A stretch of 64,000 nucleotides of DNA. It comes from Stenotrophomonas sp. 57 (GTDB taxonomy: Bacteria > Pseudomonadota > Gammaproteobacteria > Xanthomonadales > Xanthomonadaceae). The notes beneath the pieces were generated by a model that worked only from the letters and a program-made list of their open reading frames with translations, was not told where the DNA came from and did not search any database. The stretch covers positions 186,001 through 250,000 of the forward strand of contig NZ_CP127407.1 of assembly GCF_030291075.1 (NCBI RefSeq), written 5' to 3'. Of this stretch, positions 45,928 through 51,147 are shown piece by piece. Both the position numbers and the translations under genes were made by a program. Numbering within the stretch: position 1 is the first letter of the stretch; the number at the start of each line of letters is the position of its first letter.

Positions 45928-45936
45928 GTGCAGGGA

Positions 45937-46977
45937 ATGACCGGCAGGGGTGCGGCCGAGAACAGTGATGTGACGTCAGGTATCGCCCGGGTGGCGATGG
46001 CCGAGATCGTGCACGCGCTGCTGTCCGATGCCGAGGTCGCATTGTTCGCCAGATTCGCCCGCCCATGCAAGCTTCATGCCGGACAGTGGTTGTTCCAGCG
46101 CGGACATCGTGGCGAGCGCATGTACGTGATCCTGGAAGGCCAGATCGAACTGGACTTCGGCGAGGACCTGGTGATCAAGACGCTTGGCCAGCACGAGTTC
46201 TTCGGTGAGCTGGGGCTGCTGGTGGGCGATCACCCACGCAGCGCCAGCGCCCGTGCCCTGGTCGACTGCCAGGTGCTTGAGCTGGGGCCTGCCGACTTCC
46301 ATCGCCTGGTCGAATCCGATCCGGGCCTGGTCGCCTACTTCCTGCGCCGCACGATCATGCGCGTGCTGACCAACGAACAGGCCCTGATCAGCCAGCTGCG
46401 CCGGCGCAACCATGACCTGGAAACCGCGCTGGACAACCTGTACATCACCACCCACCAGCTGACCCACACCCGCGAGCTGGTGCGTACCGATGAACTGACC
46501 GGACTGCACAACCGCCGCGGCCTCACCCTGTACCTGCAGGAATGCCGTGCCGATGGCAGCGGGCTGCCGCAGGCGCTGCTGCTGATCGACTGCGACCGCT
46601 TCAAGCAGATCAATGACCGCCATGGCCACCAGGCGGGCGATCGCGTACTGCAGAGCATGGGCAACATCCTGCGCTCGATGGCCGGCGAGCAGGACCTGGC
46701 CTGCCGCCTCGGCGGTGACGAGTTCTGCCTGATCCTGCGCCGTGGCAACCACGAGATCGTGCAGCATGCGGCCGAGTTCATCCTCAGCGCGGTACACGGC
46801 CTGCTGGAACGCAGCCACGGTACGCCGCACGTCAGCCTGGTCAGCATCGGCGCCAGCCTGCTGGACCCGGATGCAGGCTGGAGCGAGTGGTATGCCAATG
46901 CGGACCGCGCGCTGTACCAGGCCAAGCGCGATGGCGGCAACTGCCTGCGTTGGGTGGATGCAGTGGACTCACCTTAG
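45937..46977 (+). CDS. Cyclic-nucleotide-binding GGDEF protein (diguanylate cyclase)
   Basis: This 346-residue protein has an N-terminal cNMP-binding domain (about 20-140; FQRGHRGERMYVILEGQIEL and FFGELGLLVGDHPRSASARA). A short coiled-coil linker leads to a GGDEF domain (about 180-345). The active-site GGDEF (259-263) is intact. The RxxD inhibitory site 5 residues before it is not, because GEQD stands there. It should make c-di-GMP under control of a bound cyclic nucleotide. The adjacent class III cyclase and gene order match the X. campestris XC_0249/XC_0250 cGMP pair known to me. The start is ATG 45937 or GTG 45928. Confidence 0.88.
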   Translation: MTGRGAAENSDVTSGIARVAMAEIVHALLSDAEVALFARFARPCKLHAGQWLFQRGHRGERMYVILEGQIELDFGEDLVIKTLGQHEFFGELGLLVGDHPRSASARALVDCQVLELGPADFHRLVESDPGLVAYFLRRTIMRVLTNEQALISQLRRRNHDLETALDNLYITTHQLTHTRELVRTDELTGLHNRRGLTLYLQECRADGSGLPQALLLIDCDRFKQINDRHGHQAGDRVLQSMGNILRSMAGEQDLACRLGGDEFCLILRRGNHEIVQHAAEFILSAVHGLLERSHGTPHVSLVSIGASLLDPDAGWSEWYANADRALYQAKRDGGNCLRWVDAVDSP

Positions 46978-46994: not shown

Positions 46995-49520
46995 ATGAAT
47001 GGCGACAACGGAACGTCGGCGCCGCACAACCAGCAACTGCGCGCCCTGCTGTTCACCGATCTGTGTGACTCACTGCTGCTGGTCGAACGCATCGGCGATG
47101 TCGCCGCCGCCGAACTGTTCCAGGAACACGACCGGCTGGTGCTGGCGCTGCAGCAGCGCTGGAACGGCCAGCTGATCGATCGCTCCGACGGGCTGTTCAT
47201 GCTGTTCGAGCGTCCGATCGATGCGCTCGGCTTCGCCCTGGACTACCAGCGTGGCCTGCAGCCGCTCGGGCAGGCGCGCGACATCCGCCTGCAGGCGCGG
47301 GCGGGGCTGCATGTGGGCGATGTGCTCACCTGGGAGAACAGTGCCGAGGCAGTGCGTGCCGGTGCCAAGGCGATCGAGGTCGAAGGGCTGGCCAAACCGA
47401 TGGCGGCGCGGTTGATGCAGCTGGCACGGCCGGGGCAGATCCTGCTTTCGGCGGTGGCCGAATCCATCGTGCGTCGTTCCAGCGCGTCGCTGGGTGCTAC
47501 AGCCGACGGCCTGCAGTGGCGGTCGTTCGGGCGCTGGCGATTCAAGGGCATCAGCCAACCTGCCGAGGTCTTCGGCGTACAGGCAGCGGGGATGCCCACG
47601 CCTGGACGGTTGCGGCACACGGCCAAGGCACGGCGTGATCTGCCGACGTGGCGCCGTCCGCTGGCCATGGCGGCACAGGCGGCTGTGCTGCTCGCTGCCG
47701 TACTTGGCGTTTGGTTGCTGACCCGGCCACAGCCGGCCATCGCCTTCGCCGAACGTGACTGGGTCGTGCTCGGTGGCCTGCACAACCTCACCGGCAATCC
47801 CCTGCTGGATGACGCACTGGACCAGGCGTTCCGGATCAGCCTCGAGCAGTCCCGCTACGTCAACGTCGTCAGTGACGACCGCGTCGGCCGCACCCTCGAA
47901 ATGATGCGCAAACCCCTGGATGGCGGCATCCGCGAACGTGGTGATGCCGCCGCCGTGGCGGTGCGCACGGGTGCACGCCTGCTGTTCGTGCCTTCGGCCA
48001 CCGATGTGGGAGGCCGTACCCGCTTCAGCGTGGAAGTGGTCGAGCCGTCGACGCTGCGCACGCTGGCCGTGGTATCGGCCGATGCGAAGGCCGGAGCGGT
48101 GCTGGCTGCGGTGGACGATGTTTCCCACCAGTTGCGCGATCGCCTGGGTGAAGAACAAGCGCTCATCCAGCGTGACAGCCAGACCCTGCCGGAGGTGACC
48201 ACGGGCAGCATGGATGCGCTGCGTGCGTTCGCGCTGGGCCAGAAGCGCTATGTGCGCGGCGACTACAAGGGGGCCTTGGCGTTCTACCAGCAGGCCACGG
48301 AGATCGATCCCGAGTTCGCATTGGCATGGTTGGGACAGACCCGCAGCCACTTTGCCGGAACGGATTTTGCCGCCGCCGCGACCTCATTGGCCAAGGCGCG
48401 AGAGTGGGCAGCGCATCTACCAACACGCGAGGCGCTGTACGTGCGTGCCTGGTCCCTGCAGATCGACGATCCGGACCAGGCGACCGACAGCTGGTTGCGC
48501 ATGGCCGAGATGTATCCGGATTATCTGGCTGCGACCAACAACGCTGCGATGAATCTCTACAACGAGAATCGATTTGCCGAAGCACTGCCCTTGGCGCAGC
48601 GGGTGGCAAGCAGCCGCGTTGATCTGCTTGCCATTGGCCAGGACCAGTATGGCCGCATCCTGCTTGCCCTTGGGCGATACGATGATGCGGACCGCGCTTT
48701 GGCACTGGCGGCCTCCACGGGCTGGGAAGGTGCATTGATGCGCCAGGCCACGGTCGCCGCTGCGCGCGCGGACTACCGCAAAGCCGAACAGTTGCTGCAG
48801 CGTATTGATCCAGGCAACTACCACGCCGATATCTTCCGCACGGCCATCGCCCTGGACAGCGGCAGGATCGACGTGGCACTGGCCAGTGCCGAGCGTGGCA
48901 TGCAGCGTAGCCTTGGCAAGTCAGGCATCGATCGCTATGTCTACTACCTGCCGCTTGCCGTTGCACATCTCCAATCGGGCCAGGGCCAGTCAGCGATCGC
49001 GCTGGTGGAGGAGGTCGGTCGCGTGGCCTTCGTGGATATCGAGGGCAGACCCGCAGTGGATATCGTCGACCGCGTGGTGACGGCGCAGGCAGCAGCGCTG
49101 GTCGGGCTGCGGCTGGGAAACACGAAGGTGGCCGCGCAGGTTCAGGCGCGCATCGCAGCGATCAGGTCGCTTCCTGACAGCGTGATGATCAAGGAATTCG
49201 ACGCGGTGATCCGCGCCGAGCGCCTGCGTGGCGAAAACAGGCCCGCAGAGGCGCTGGAGATCCTGCAGCCGTTCCTGGGGGAGCGCTCGCGCGTCCAGAC
49301 CCGGGTGGCAGCGCTGCAGGCGGCGCGCGCAGCGGGAGACGAATCGCTCGCCGGCCAGCAGTTGCGCTGGCTGCAATCCAGGCAAGGGCTGGCCTACGCC
49401 GAACTTGAGTGTGCGTTCTGCCTGCAGGGATTGAACATCCTCGATATCCGCAGCGTGGAAGGCGCTACGGATACCCGCGGACCGGTGAAGGCTCCGGTCA
49501 TGCCCGGCACCGCGGGCTGA
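46995..49520 (+). CDS. Class III nucleotidyl cyclase with membrane helix and TPR region
   Basis: This 841-residue protein has a class III cyclase domain (about 15-195) with metal-binding Asp in LLFTDLCDS and DRSDGLFMLF, and the turn RAGLHVGDV. A single membrane helix lies near 222-244 (MAAQAAVLLAAVLGVWLL). Next is a domain (about 255-400) resembling TolB/FlgO-like modules, and then several TPR repeats (about 410-760; RYVRGDYKGALAFYQQATEI). It starts 17 bp after the cNMP-GGDEF gene, so the two form an operon. By homology it is the guanylate cyclase feeding the GGDEF partner. Whether it makes cGMP or cAMP is not decided from sequence. Confidence 0.85.
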   Translation: MNGDNGTSAPHNQQLRALLFTDLCDSLLLVERIGDVAAAELFQEHDRLVLALQQRWNGQLIDRSDGLFMLFERPIDALGFALDYQRGLQPLGQARDIRLQARAGLHVGDVLTWENSAEAVRAGAKAIEVEGLAKPMAARLMQLARPGQILLSAVAESIVRRSSASLGATADGLQWRSFGRWRFKGISQPAEVFGVQAAGMPTPGRLRHTAKARRDLPTWRRPLAMAAQAAVLLAAVLGVWLLTRPQPAIAFAERDWVVLGGLHNLTGNPLLDDALDQAFRISLEQSRYVNVVSDDRVGRTLEMMRKPLDGGIRERGDAAAVAVRTGARLLFVPSATDVGGRTRFSVEVVEPSTLRTLAVVSADAKAGAVLAAVDDVSHQLRDRLGEEQALIQRDSQTLPEVTTGSMDALRAFALGQKRYVRGDYKGALAFYQQATEIDPEFALAWLGQTRSHFAGTDFAAAATSLAKAREWAAHLPTREALYVRAWSLQIDDPDQATDSWLRMAEMYPDYLAATNNAAMNLYNENRFAEALPLAQRVASSRVDLLAIGQDQYGRILLALGRYDDADRALALAASTGWEGALMRQATVAAARADYRKAEQLLQRIDPGNYHADIFRTAIALDSGRIDVALASAERGMQRSLGKSGIDRYVYYLPLAVAHLQSGQGQSAIALVEEVGRVAFVDIEGRPAVDIVDRVVTAQAAALVGLRLGNTKVAAQVQARIAAIRSLPDSVMIKEFDAVIRAERLRGENRPAEALEILQPFLGERSRVQTRVAALQAARAAGDESLAGQQLRWLQSRQGLAYAELECAFCLQGLNILDIRSVEGATDTRGPVKAPVMPGTAG

Positions 49521-49526
49521 AACGGG

Positions 49527-49838
49527 TCAGCGCAGCGTACGCGGTGCGTCGCCGGTGTGGCCGTTCTCCAGCATCGGTACGTTGAAGGCCGCGCCGGATG
49601 TAAGCATGGCGACGATCTGCGGCAGTGCCTGCGCGATGACGGCCTTGTCGGCCAGCTCGATGGAAGCACAGCACATGGCGACGAACTGGCTCAGTTCGGC
49701 CGGGTCTTCCGGAACGTGACCCGCTTCCAGCAGCGCTGCTTCCGGCGACTGGGTGAAGCGGCCACGGAAGGCATCGTCGGTGGCGAGCAGGTTGACAAGA
49801 TTCTGCGCGACGGCAGGTTCCAGCTGCAGGGTGGGCAT
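49527..49838 (-). CDS. RiPP precursor-like peptide with NHLP/Nif11-type leader
   Basis: This 103-residue protein has no signal peptide. Residues 1-80 resemble the nitrile-hydratase-like/Nif11-like leaders of modified peptides: an amphipathic start (LVNLLATDDAFRGRF), SPEAALLEAG, CCAS (Cys56, Cys57) and a hydrophobic helix AVIAQALPQIVAMLTSG. The short C-terminal 20 residues (NVPMLENGHTGDAPRTLR) would be the core. It contains no Cys or Ser and two Thr. It is divergent from a SagB-like dehydrogenase, the only maturation enzyme here. ATG 49838 has a weak ribosome site. The family call is by pattern; the product is unknown. Confidence 0.6.
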   Translation of the reverse strand: MPTLQLEPAVAQNLVNLLATDDAFRGRFTQSPEAALLEAGHVPEDPAELSQFVAMCCASIELADKAVIAQALPQIVAMLTSGAAFNVPMLENGHTGDAPRTLR

Positions 49839-49971
49839 GGTGGAGTCCGGAAGAGTCGGTGTGGAACCTTGATGTCGGCACCGGGGGACGCTTCTTGAGT
49901 AGTCATCGCGTTGCCATCAAGGAATCGCCTCATCGCTCGATAACGTGGCAGGAATGTTGAAAGGAACGAGC
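49839..49971. promoter_or_regulatory. Divergent promoter region of the peptide/dehydrogenase pair
   Basis: This 133-bp gap separates the precursor-like gene and the SagB-like gene. AAAGGA (49959-49964) is the ribosome site for the plus-strand gene. No consensus promoter is obvious. The small size implies shared control of the pair. Confidence 0.4.
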
Positions 49972-51147
49972 ATGCAGGTCAGGCGCTGTGCGGTACTGAT
50001 GATGGAGCCGCGGGAGACAACGACGTTCGATCTTCAGGACCTGGTGCAGGGAGGAAATGGCCTCCGTCGCAGCCAGGTCTGGCTGGCGCTGGCACCGCAC
50101 CTGCCTGAGCCGATCGAGCTCAGCGCCGCGCACCAGGCCTGGCTGGGCAGGCTCAGCCCCAGCGTATGGCAGGACATCGCCGTGGACAGTGAGGAGGCGG
50201 GAATGATCCCGGCGTTGCAGCAGGCAGGACTGGTGTTTGTCCGGGGCAGCGCGACGGACGCAGCGTCGATTGCCGACGAGGCGTTGCGCTCTACCTACTG
50301 GCACCCGCTTGCTGCCGTGCTGCACGCATTCTCGCGCTGGGATGGGGTGGATGCCGTCGGCAACATGCGCGCGTCCAGGACCGAGACGGCCGTGCAGATG
50401 CGCGAAACGCTGGGAGCGCCGCCTGCGACTACGGTGTCACGTTGCAGCGAGGGTGCCATTGCATTGCCCAGGGCCGAGCCTGCGGCCTTCGACGCATTGC
50501 TGGCCCGTCGCGCAACCTGCCGCAATTTCGACTGGCAGCGACCGCTGTCGCTGCCGCTGCTGGCGCGGATGCTGCAACGAACCTTCGGCAGCACCGGCGA
50601 GCACCGTGTCGGCGAGGACCTGGTGTTCCTGAAGAAGAACGTGCCTTCCGGCGGTGGTCTGCATCCCATCGAGGCCTATCTGGTCGTGCAGAACGTCGAA
50701 GGCCTGCCGGCAGGTCTCTATCACTATCGCGGCGATACCCATGTGCTGGAGCCGGTGCCCTCGGAAAGCACGGTGGACCGCGACTTCGTGATGGATGCTG
50801 TCGGCCAGCAGCACTGGTTCGCCGACGCCCATGTGCTGGTGATCCTGGCGCCGCGCTTCGACCGCACGTTCTGGAAGTATCGCCAGCACGCGAAAAGCTA
50901 CCGCGTCATTGCCCTCGAGGCCGGGCATCTGTCGCAGACCCTGTATCTGGCCGCGACCGACGATGGCCTGGGGGCGTTCATCACCGCGGCGATCAACGAG
51001 AAAGCGATCGAGCGCGCCCTTTCGCTGGATCCGGTCACCGAGGGCGTCCTTGCCGTATGCGGTTTCGGCTGGCGCGCCCCGACCATGACCACGACCGAGC
51101 TGGACCCGGCAGGCGTGATCTGGAATCCCGAAGACCGCGCGGTCTGA
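49972..51147 (+). CDS. SagB-type dehydrogenase, putative peptide maturation enzyme
   Basis: This 391-residue protein has a C-terminal nitroreductase/SagB-type FMN domain (about 165-385) with RRATCRNFDWQRPLSLPLL, PSGGGLHPIEAYLVVQNV, LYLAATDDGLGAFI and VLAVCGFG. The N-terminal 160 residues are an uncharacterised extension resembling those of peptide-maturation SagB relatives. SagB enzymes oxidise azolines to azoles in modified peptides. ATG 49972 has AAAGGA 7 nt upstream. Its partner is the divergent precursor-like gene. No cyclodehydratase/YcaO, protease or exporter gene is in the window, so its reaction here is open. Confidence 0.75.
   Translation: MQVRRCAVLMMEPRETTTFDLQDLVQGGNGLRRSQVWLALAPHLPEPIELSAAHQAWLGRLSPSVWQDIAVDSEEAGMIPALQQAGLVFVRGSATDAASIADEALRSTYWHPLAAVLHAFSRWDGVDAVGNMRASRTETAVQMRETLGAPPATTVSRCSEGAIALPRAEPAAFDALLARRATCRNFDWQRPLSLPLLARMLQRTFGSTGEHRVGEDLVFLKKNVPSGGGLHPIEAYLVVQNVEGLPAGLYHYRGDTHVLEPVPSESTVDRDFVMDAVGQQHWFADAHVLVILAPRFDRTFWKYRQHAKSYRVIALEAGHLSQTLYLAATDDGLGAFITAAINEKAIERALSLDPVTEGVLAVCGFGWRAPTMTTTELDPAGVIWNPEDRAV

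Follow-up and report, generated by a model that had tools for sequence, protein, structure and literature searches.

The window analysed here is a 64,000-nucleotide stretch of the Stenotrophomonas sp. 57 genome (NZ_CP127407.1, positions 186,001 to 250,000), and its subject is a locus of four genes, which encode a cyclic nucleoside monophosphate (cNMP)-binding protein with a GGDEF domain (CNB-GGDEF), a class III nucleotidyl cyclase with a long TPR-repeat domain, a small precursor-like peptide and a SagB-like flavin mononucleotide (FMN) dehydrogenase (Table 1). The peptide, the cyclase and the dehydrogenase scored 103.9, 1111.5 and 553.6 bits against the NCBIfam models TIGR04509, TIGR04510 and TIGR04511 (cut-offs 34, 400 and 240, respectively) and thus belong to these families, while the fourth protein matched the Pfam models cNMP_binding (72 bits) and GGDEF (131 bits). 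The CNB-GGDEF gene precedes the cyclase gene, for which the ATG at 46995 was preferred to the mechanical GTG at 46887, giving a protein of 841 residues, and six bases separate the end of the cyclase gene from the stop codon of the peptide gene. The same order, i.e., CNB-GGDEF, cyclase, convergent peptide and divergent dehydrogenase, is the usual one in neighbourhoods across the order Xanthomonadales.

Table 1. Genes and predicted features of the locus, in window coordinates.
Feature	Coordinates	Strand	Basis
cNMP-binding + GGDEF protein, XC_0249 counterpart, predicted cGMP-stimulated diguanylate cyclase	45928..46977	+	Pfam
TIGR04510 transmembrane guanylate cyclase receptor (predicted), XC_0250 counterpart	46995..49520	+	profile score, hydropathy
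Class III cyclase domain, N-terminal, residues 11-190	47025..47564	+	six XC_0250 catalytic positions
Predicted transmembrane helix, N-terminus inside	47664..47720	+	hydropathy peak 2.17, charge bias
Predicted periplasmic sensor domain, first part	47739..48206	+	59% mean identity, 249 close pairs
Hypervariable TPR sensor domain, proposed peptide receptor	48207..49517	+	TPR_19, 40% mean identity
NHLP-type precursor peptide (TIGR04509), 103 aa	49527..49838	-	profile score, structure model
Predicted folded helical leader, peptide residues 1-83	49590..49838	-	structure model, weak fold matches
Predicted core, probably disordered, peptide residues 84-103	49530..49589	-	pLDDT <50
Divergent intergenic region, peptide start to dehydrogenase start, 133 bp	49839..49971	.	
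SagB-like FMN dehydrogenase (TIGR04511), 391 aa, ATG at 49972	49972..51147	+	K302-Y303 Lys-Tyr motif

Results from a survey of 151 genomes of the order showed that each of the three families was above its cut-off in 32 genomes, and that the three sets of genomes were identical. The three genes sit side by side in 31 of these carriers and lie on two contig ends in the remaining one (G025), and a CNB-GGDEF gene adjoins the cyclase gene in 28. An earlier note on this DNA had predicted a two-gene system for a ribosomally synthesized and post-translationally modified peptide (RiPP), in which a leader-type peptide is divergent from a dehydrogenase. The divergent arrangement and its gap agree with the two reading frames, the families co-occur with no failure of the pairing, and the profile searches place both proteins far above curated RiPP-type cut-offs, well beyond chance; the NHLP likeness is also seen in a match of the TIGR04509 profile to nitrile hydratase alpha (E 8e-4). 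The RiPP interpretation therefore holds for the pairing of leader peptide and dehydrogenase but not for the extent of the system: the locus is a four-gene set. Curated families of the kind that the note mentioned do exist, and their names ('NHLP-related RiPP peptide' for TIGR04509, 'putative peptide modification system cyclase' for TIGR04510 and 'putative peptide maturation dehydrogenase' for TIGR04511) already hint at an association of the three proteins and imply a peptide modification system, whereas we read the cyclase as a nucleotidyl cyclase with a sensor, the likely reader of the peptide. To that picture we add the CNB-GGDEF gene and the polymorphism of types described below.

Within the genus of the window, 80 of 81 genomes had a cyclase above the cut-off, and all four genes were present in 80 of 80 loci analysed, which had been selected for an unbroken cyclase (G456 and G491, with broken cyclases, were omitted, and G096 and G131 were added from the order survey). 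In the phylum, the peptide family exceeded its cut-off in 5 of 299 genomes, every one from this order. No further partner gene emerged, as none of 197 flanking open-frame clusters reached at least three of the five taxonomic families.

In the TIGR04510 protein, a class III cyclase domain is followed by a single, strongly hydrophobic helix and a long TPR-repeat domain, with a Pfam TPR_19 match at the start of the TPR sensor domain; the window protein has one strong hydropathy peak (2.17). In TIGR04510-type proteins of at least 700 residues, seven of which have a second, weaker peak, the helix of highest hydrophobicity comes immediately after the cyclase domain (a kinase-like domain in G073b). 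Lysine and arginine are richer on the N-terminal side of this helix in 42 of 42 reading frames of that length (mean 5.6 versus 2.1 per 20 residues). Since GTP is required by the cyclase, we predict a periplasmic TPR domain. This predicted membrane-receptor topology goes beyond the earlier note, as do the link to a Xanthomonas signalling pathway and the hypervariable cassette, both described next.

In Xanthomonas campestris, according to the accessible text of An et al. 2013 (PMC3770947), XC_0250, which contains a class III cyclase domain and a TPR domain called uncharacterised, synthesises cyclic GMP (cGMP), and the product of the neighbouring gene, XC_0249 (cNMP-binding plus GGDEF), synthesises cyclic di-GMP (c-di-GMP) faster upon cGMP binding; both proteins influence biofilm and virulence. 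A 2019 review, in the text available, still terms the TPR domain uncharacterised, and another paper naming XC_0250 merely lists the gene where it is mentioned. We observed that the six catalytic positions of XC_0250 that An et al. tested, as numbered in the accessible part of PMC3770947 (D41, D71, L73, A150, L157 and A161), match D71, D101, L103, A180, L187 and A191 of the window reading frame at a constant offset of 30. Furthermore, the XC_0249 contacts to cGMP at F73, E90, H98 and E146 correspond to F77, E94, H102 and E150, which are identical in 36 of 36 proteins including that of the window; the fifth contact, N145, corresponds to N149, which is Asn in the window and in 23 of 36 overall (Ser in 10, Gly in 3). 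These conservation counts were made without L010 (dehydrogenase and cyclase), L006 (cyclase and CNB-GGDEF, whose frames are split) and the kinase fusion G073b (cyclase). The window therefore shows the XC_0250/XC_0249 pattern, with neighbouring genes and six catalytic plus five contact positions at constant offsets. One difference is that the main text of PMC3770947, which describes the Xanthomonas pair, never mentions membrane, periplasm or peptide; transmembrane, XC_0251 and XC_0252 are likewise absent from it. Synthesis of cGMP and a cGMP-stimulated diguanylate cyclase are thus published for the Xanthomonas counterparts and predicted, from residue matches, for the window proteins. No input signal is named for this pathway in the accessible text of either PMC3770947 or the 2019 review.

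A comparison within the genus revealed a hypervariable island with sharp edges at this locus. The comparison used the 73 loci that had all parts, i.e., 2,628 pairs, and left out seven of the 80 genus loci in which the set of flank genes was incomplete; from these, 249 close pairs (53 genomes) were selected by identity of at least 94% in all three flanking proteins. Along the locus, mean identity in the close pairs was 99% for the left flank, 96% for CNB, 95% for GGDEF, 81% for the cyclase domain, 64% for the linker, 59% for the first sensor part, 40% for the TPR domain, 38% for the tail part of the peptide, 48% for its leader part, 51% and 63% for the two dehydrogenase parts, and 96% and 99% for the next two genes. 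Identity of the TPR domain was bimodal (158 pairs at 20-30%, 22 at 90-100% and 23 at 60-70%), and GGDEF was at 90-100% in 233 of the 249 pairs. Correlation between neighbouring parts was at least 0.91 within the cassette and fell to 0.21 (GGDEF-cyclase) and -0.02 (dehydrogenase-next gene) at its edges, with values of 0.42, 0.84 and 0.50 outside it.

The edges are also apparent in single pairs of genomes. DNA windows of G506 and G453 are 88-98% identical until the start of the cyclase, 38-75% between that point and the dehydrogenase stop codon, and 92-100% again beginning 150 bp past it. In G494/G450 and G475/G023, differences are confined to the TPR domain (66-67% identity) and the peptide (69-80%), the rest being 94-100% identical at the protein level. 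The same pattern was found outside the genus: between L007 (X. euroxanthea) and G061, identity is 100% for the cyclase domain, 97% for GGDEF, 31% for the TPR domain and 33% for the peptide tail part, and between G101 and G141 the corresponding values are 98, 100, 31 and 40%. At 60% single linkage, the 73 genus genomes contain 31 TPR clusters. Within types, the ratio of nonsynonymous to synonymous polymorphism (pN/pS) was 0.10 for the TPR domain and 0.08 for GGDEF in 18 close pairs, and 0.22 versus 0.14 in 61 looser pairs; peptide values, at 0.22-0.35, were higher than those of the TPR domain. The low within-type pN/pS of the TPR domain indicates that the diversity is not plain loss of constraint, and relaxed constraint was rejected as its source.

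The peptide and TPR types co-segregate. Among the genus loci, identity of the TPR domain correlated with that of the peptide tail part at r = 0.98, versus 0.11 with GGDEF and 0.02 with MCCa. None of the 80 pairs with TPR identity of at least 75% had a peptide tail part below 60%, and none of the 2,350 pairs with TPR identity below 45% had one at 60% or more; the other 198 of the 2,628 pairs (TPR identity 45-75%) fall in neither mismatch class. One flank cluster of 31 genomes contains nine TPR types, and 11 of 15 multi-member TPR types were found in more than one flank cluster. Predicted cores are alike within a TPR type, e.g. VVFCFEAGKV-, VPFLFEDGLPGL- and VPMLE-PRTLR-like cores. The dehydrogenase is tied to the TPR type less strictly than the peptide is: relative to six other genomes, G493 has TPR identity of 76-77% and peptide tail identity of 71-75%, with only 42-44% in the N-terminal part of the dehydrogenase. 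Peptide, enzyme and sensor are polymorphic together over a conserved output, as in pherotype loci.

Several carriers depart from the standard gene set. L130 (G110) has a tandem pair of cyclase-peptide-dehydrogenase modules alongside a single CNB-GGDEF gene, and in L215 (G444) and L212 (G454) a single peptide and a single dehydrogenase share the cassette with two full cyclases, which are about 69-70% identical to each other. Beyond the dehydrogenase, L221 (G476), L219 (G507), L206 (G470), L166 (G495), L197 (G493) and L213 (G449) carry additional peptide genes, in some cases together with a further dehydrogenase; these may be leftovers of other types or a reserve of them. In L119 (G096), L188 (G514) and L187 (G455), a second membrane-anchored sensor without a cyclase directly follows the dehydrogenase and shares 32-34% identity with the sensor of the full cyclase. 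A like sensor domain occurs in L113 (G073 contig C175, 2354-5239), after an N-terminus that, in place of a cyclase, by eye resembles a Ser/Thr protein kinase. L108 (G059 contig C51, 2821-5460) is an orphan TIGR04510 cyclase with two conserved Asp residues (window D58 and D101) changed and no peptide, dehydrogenase or CNB-GGDEF detected nearby, and in L010 (Xanthomonas phaseoli ATCC 49119) the cyclase, peptide and dehydrogenase are each broken. Finally, among the best 120 of 1,399 relatives of the dehydrogenase, orthologues with 53-54% identity in Streptomyces, Kitasatospora and Kribbella (P0021, P0033, P0046, P0065 and P0120) suggest transfer to actinobacteria; a plasmid search for dehydrogenase relatives returned distant SagB proteins and nothing closer.

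The structure model of the peptide places six helices in the stretch from residue 8 to residue 81, with predicted local distance difference test (pLDDT) values of 74-88 for the block and below 50 for residues 84-103. By predicted structure, the peptide therefore has the leader-plus-core form of a RiPP precursor, with a folded leader and a disordered core of about 20 residues. Its best fold matches, all weak, are NHLP/RiPP precursors. Among known systems, those closest to the peptide include the NHLP/proteusin precursors MprE7 (8tb1), DprE2 (9cjx) and Os1348 (6lk7); the Os1348 model scored 27.4 bits against the window peptide, below its cut-off of 40. Unlike those precursors, the peptides here have no conserved double-glycine site and are accompanied by one enzyme rather than a large cluster. 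The predicted core has, as described previously, no Cys, no Ser and two Thr, with Cys56-Cys57 present upstream. The suggestion that this CysCys pair is the target of modification was rejected, because Cys is not universal: among 49 distinct peptides from the order (the over-extended frame G014_7 and identical repeats were removed), six have no Cys at all, and two peptides from Xanthomonas have Thr or Ala in place of Cys57.

The dehydrogenase retains the Lys-Tyr motif (K302-Y303 in the window) in 41 of 41 proteins, and its SagB domain model scored 127 bits against a cut-off of 78.4. The table of fold matches, from a search with the whole model, is dominated by the nitroreductase domain; the match to the peptide oxidase ThcOx (its residues 115-473) begins at model residue 1 and spans the whole length, so that it includes the N-terminal part, previously taken for a novel extension. 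In ThcOx, this part consists of leader-binding domains, and in the window protein it may resemble a RiPP recognition element (RRE), which is a winged-helix domain that binds leaders, judging from the model.

Altogether, the reading that we favour, and to which we give somewhat better than an even chance, is that these genes form a self-specific cassette for peptide signalling, in which the matured peptide serves as ligand for a transmembrane guanylate cyclase whose activity raises c-di-GMP. The dehydrogenase would use its N-terminal domain, which is possibly RRE-like, to bind the folded leader of the NHLP type, and would oxidise the core of about 20 residues without a cyclodehydratase; most likely, a core residue would lose two hydrogens (-2 Da) rather than form an azole. 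The core would then arrive in the periplasm, where the TPR domain of the cyclase may recognise it and alter cGMP synthesis in the cytosol; cGMP would bind the neighbouring CNB-GGDEF protein, and the resulting rise in c-di-GMP would control biofilm and related traits. Types (alleles) of peptide and sensor, and to some degree dehydrogenase, would be swapped by recombination. Modification, export, binding, activation and intercellular action are steps that we infer; the reading of signal, receptor and relay draws on analogy, as enzyme, peptide and sensor vary as a unit over a conserved output. In pherotype loci, the enzyme, the peptide and the sensor of the receptor vary together above a conserved output. 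The ComQXPA receptor of Bacillus is a histidine kinase that works with a response regulator and has a conserved output half, and the peptide modification is isoprenylation, whereas a guanylate cyclase and flavin oxidation are proposed here. The likeness to ComQXPA is that its locus is also strongly divergent between near-clonal strains: the accessible text of PMC4408185 gives 65-70% nucleotide identity of comQ between clusters and more than 30% comQ divergence among strains with clonal gyrA.

A number of observations weigh against this signalling reading. The stop codons of cyclase and peptide are about 7 bp apart (median, 80 loci), so one recombination tract carries both, and linkage alone would give most of the co-segregation; adjacency alone leaves unexplained that diversity centres at this junction, that the edges are sharp and that types persist. 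VVFCFEAG-like cores are shared by several TPR types, and the core alone is therefore no label of type. In a first distance test, partial Mantel coefficients were 0.77 and 0.52, partly a rate effect. Under strict controls (cubic controls, log distances or ranks), order-wide coupling of the tail and the sensor fell to 0.25 (p 0.004), 0.11 (p 0.10) and 0.12 (p 0.08); within the family it was 0.52, and leader-sensor coupling stayed at 0.30-0.41. These tests were run without G091, G025 and G025b and, in the strict version, also without six near-duplicates. They agree in direction with the co-segregation seen in the pairwise survey and weaken under strict controls, and because of this drop we prefer the pairwise survey.

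The output and the export of the peptide raise further difficulties for it. The CNB-GGDEF gene was not found beside the cyclase in G014, G024, G073 and G091, all of which have kilobases of flanking sequence, so that contig ends alone were rejected as the cause; in L126 (G014), L129 (G024) and L131 (G073), another cGMP effector would have to act, if any. In L120 (G091), five near-identical tandem peptides, the dehydrogenase and the sensor half are kept, with no CNB-GGDEF nearby, while the cyclase domain has a deletion and differs at four of the six XC_0250 positions, which implies that c-di-GMP output is not universal. Furthermore, the peptide alignments contain no invariant modifiable residue and, among the 49 distinct peptides, no conserved GG-type cleavage site. 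The cassette holds no exporter or protease gene, in agreement with the earlier note; a C39 peptidase was found in 17 of the 32 carriers, and C39 export was rejected as an obligatory part. The genome of the window does have a C39 match, within a frame of 702 aa some 58 kb away from the peptide gene. Finally, polymorphism of the TPR domain could stem from an external enemy.

One alternative hypothesis is a conflict or kin-discrimination cassette, in which the peptide hits competitors, the polymorphic periplasmic TPR domain serves as the matching immunity factor or as a danger sensor, and cGMP is an alarm. Orphan modules of conflict systems look like the extra downstream peptide copies seen in several loci, some with an extra dehydrogenase, and the discrete, horizontally exchanged types under purifying selection would also suit such a cassette. 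However, in 28 of 32 carriers the neighbour of the receptor gene encodes a diguanylate cyclase that binds cGMP, and the flanking clusters yielded no further conserved partner, so that we consider this explanation unlikely. An intracellular redox or cofactor module is distinctly improbable. Here, the peptide would be made redox-active, as for mycofactocin (PMC3023750, in the text available), or a complex of peptide and dehydrogenase would regulate the cyclase from the cytosol, with no export. The absence of an exporter from the locus, of a C39 match from 15 of 32 carriers and, by eye, of a signal-peptide-like start is in keeping with this, but the half of the cyclase that covaries with the peptide lies beyond the membrane helix and not in the cytosol, and a cofactor should be uniform, yet cores differ by type.

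We give still less credence to an unmodified peptide, i.e., to the NHLP-type protein itself being the ligand or regulator while the dehydrogenase senses redox or acts elsewhere. Seven of the 49 distinct peptides have no Cys, Ser or Thr in the tail (four are the near-identical G091 copies), and the G493 dehydrogenase diverges while its TPR domain and peptide tail part stay similar; the enzyme nevertheless occurs in the same 32 genomes, with an invariant Lys-Tyr motif and a fold match to peptide oxidases. An ordinary azole RiPP of the thiazole/oxazole-modified microcin (TOMM) type, with its cyclodehydratase elsewhere, would fit the SagB score, but is largely refuted and very improbable, because a YcaO match occurs in 1 of 32 carriers and nowhere in the genome of the window, where the earlier note had seen none nearby, and Cys is missing from 26 of 64 distinct cores of the genus. 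Azole chemistry was rejected on the YcaO survey. The absence of YcaO from 31 of 32 carriers also sets the dehydrogenase apart from the flavin oxidases ThcOx, BmdC and McbC (PDB 5lq4, 7ly7 and 6grh), which are among the closest known systems and act on azolines.

The families were already catalogued and the downstream pathway was already known, whereas we found neither the joining of the two, nor the receptor reading, nor the polymorphic cassette in our searches of open-licence papers. On the signalling reading, the SagB-like dehydrogenase has no cyclodehydratase to rely on, which makes a new peptide modification likely. A more specific claim, which we put at slightly below an even chance, is that the locus encodes a peptide hormone of bacteria together with its receptor guanylate cyclase, i.e., that a flavin-oxidised ribosomal peptide of many mutually exclusive types gates transmembrane cGMP synthesis and then c-di-GMP in a type-specific manner. 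The locus would be a bacterial counterpart of the peptide-hormone receptor guanylate cyclases and a candidate input for the bacterial cGMP pathway, for which the accessible text of PMC3770947 and the 2019 review names no signal. If this more specific claim is true, the Xanthomonadaceae would have a private communication channel alongside diffusible signal factor (DSF). Receptor, peptide and enzyme occur as matched natural alleles and hence offer a ready genetic test, through which type-specific communication in Stenotrophomonas and Xanthomonas becomes directly testable.

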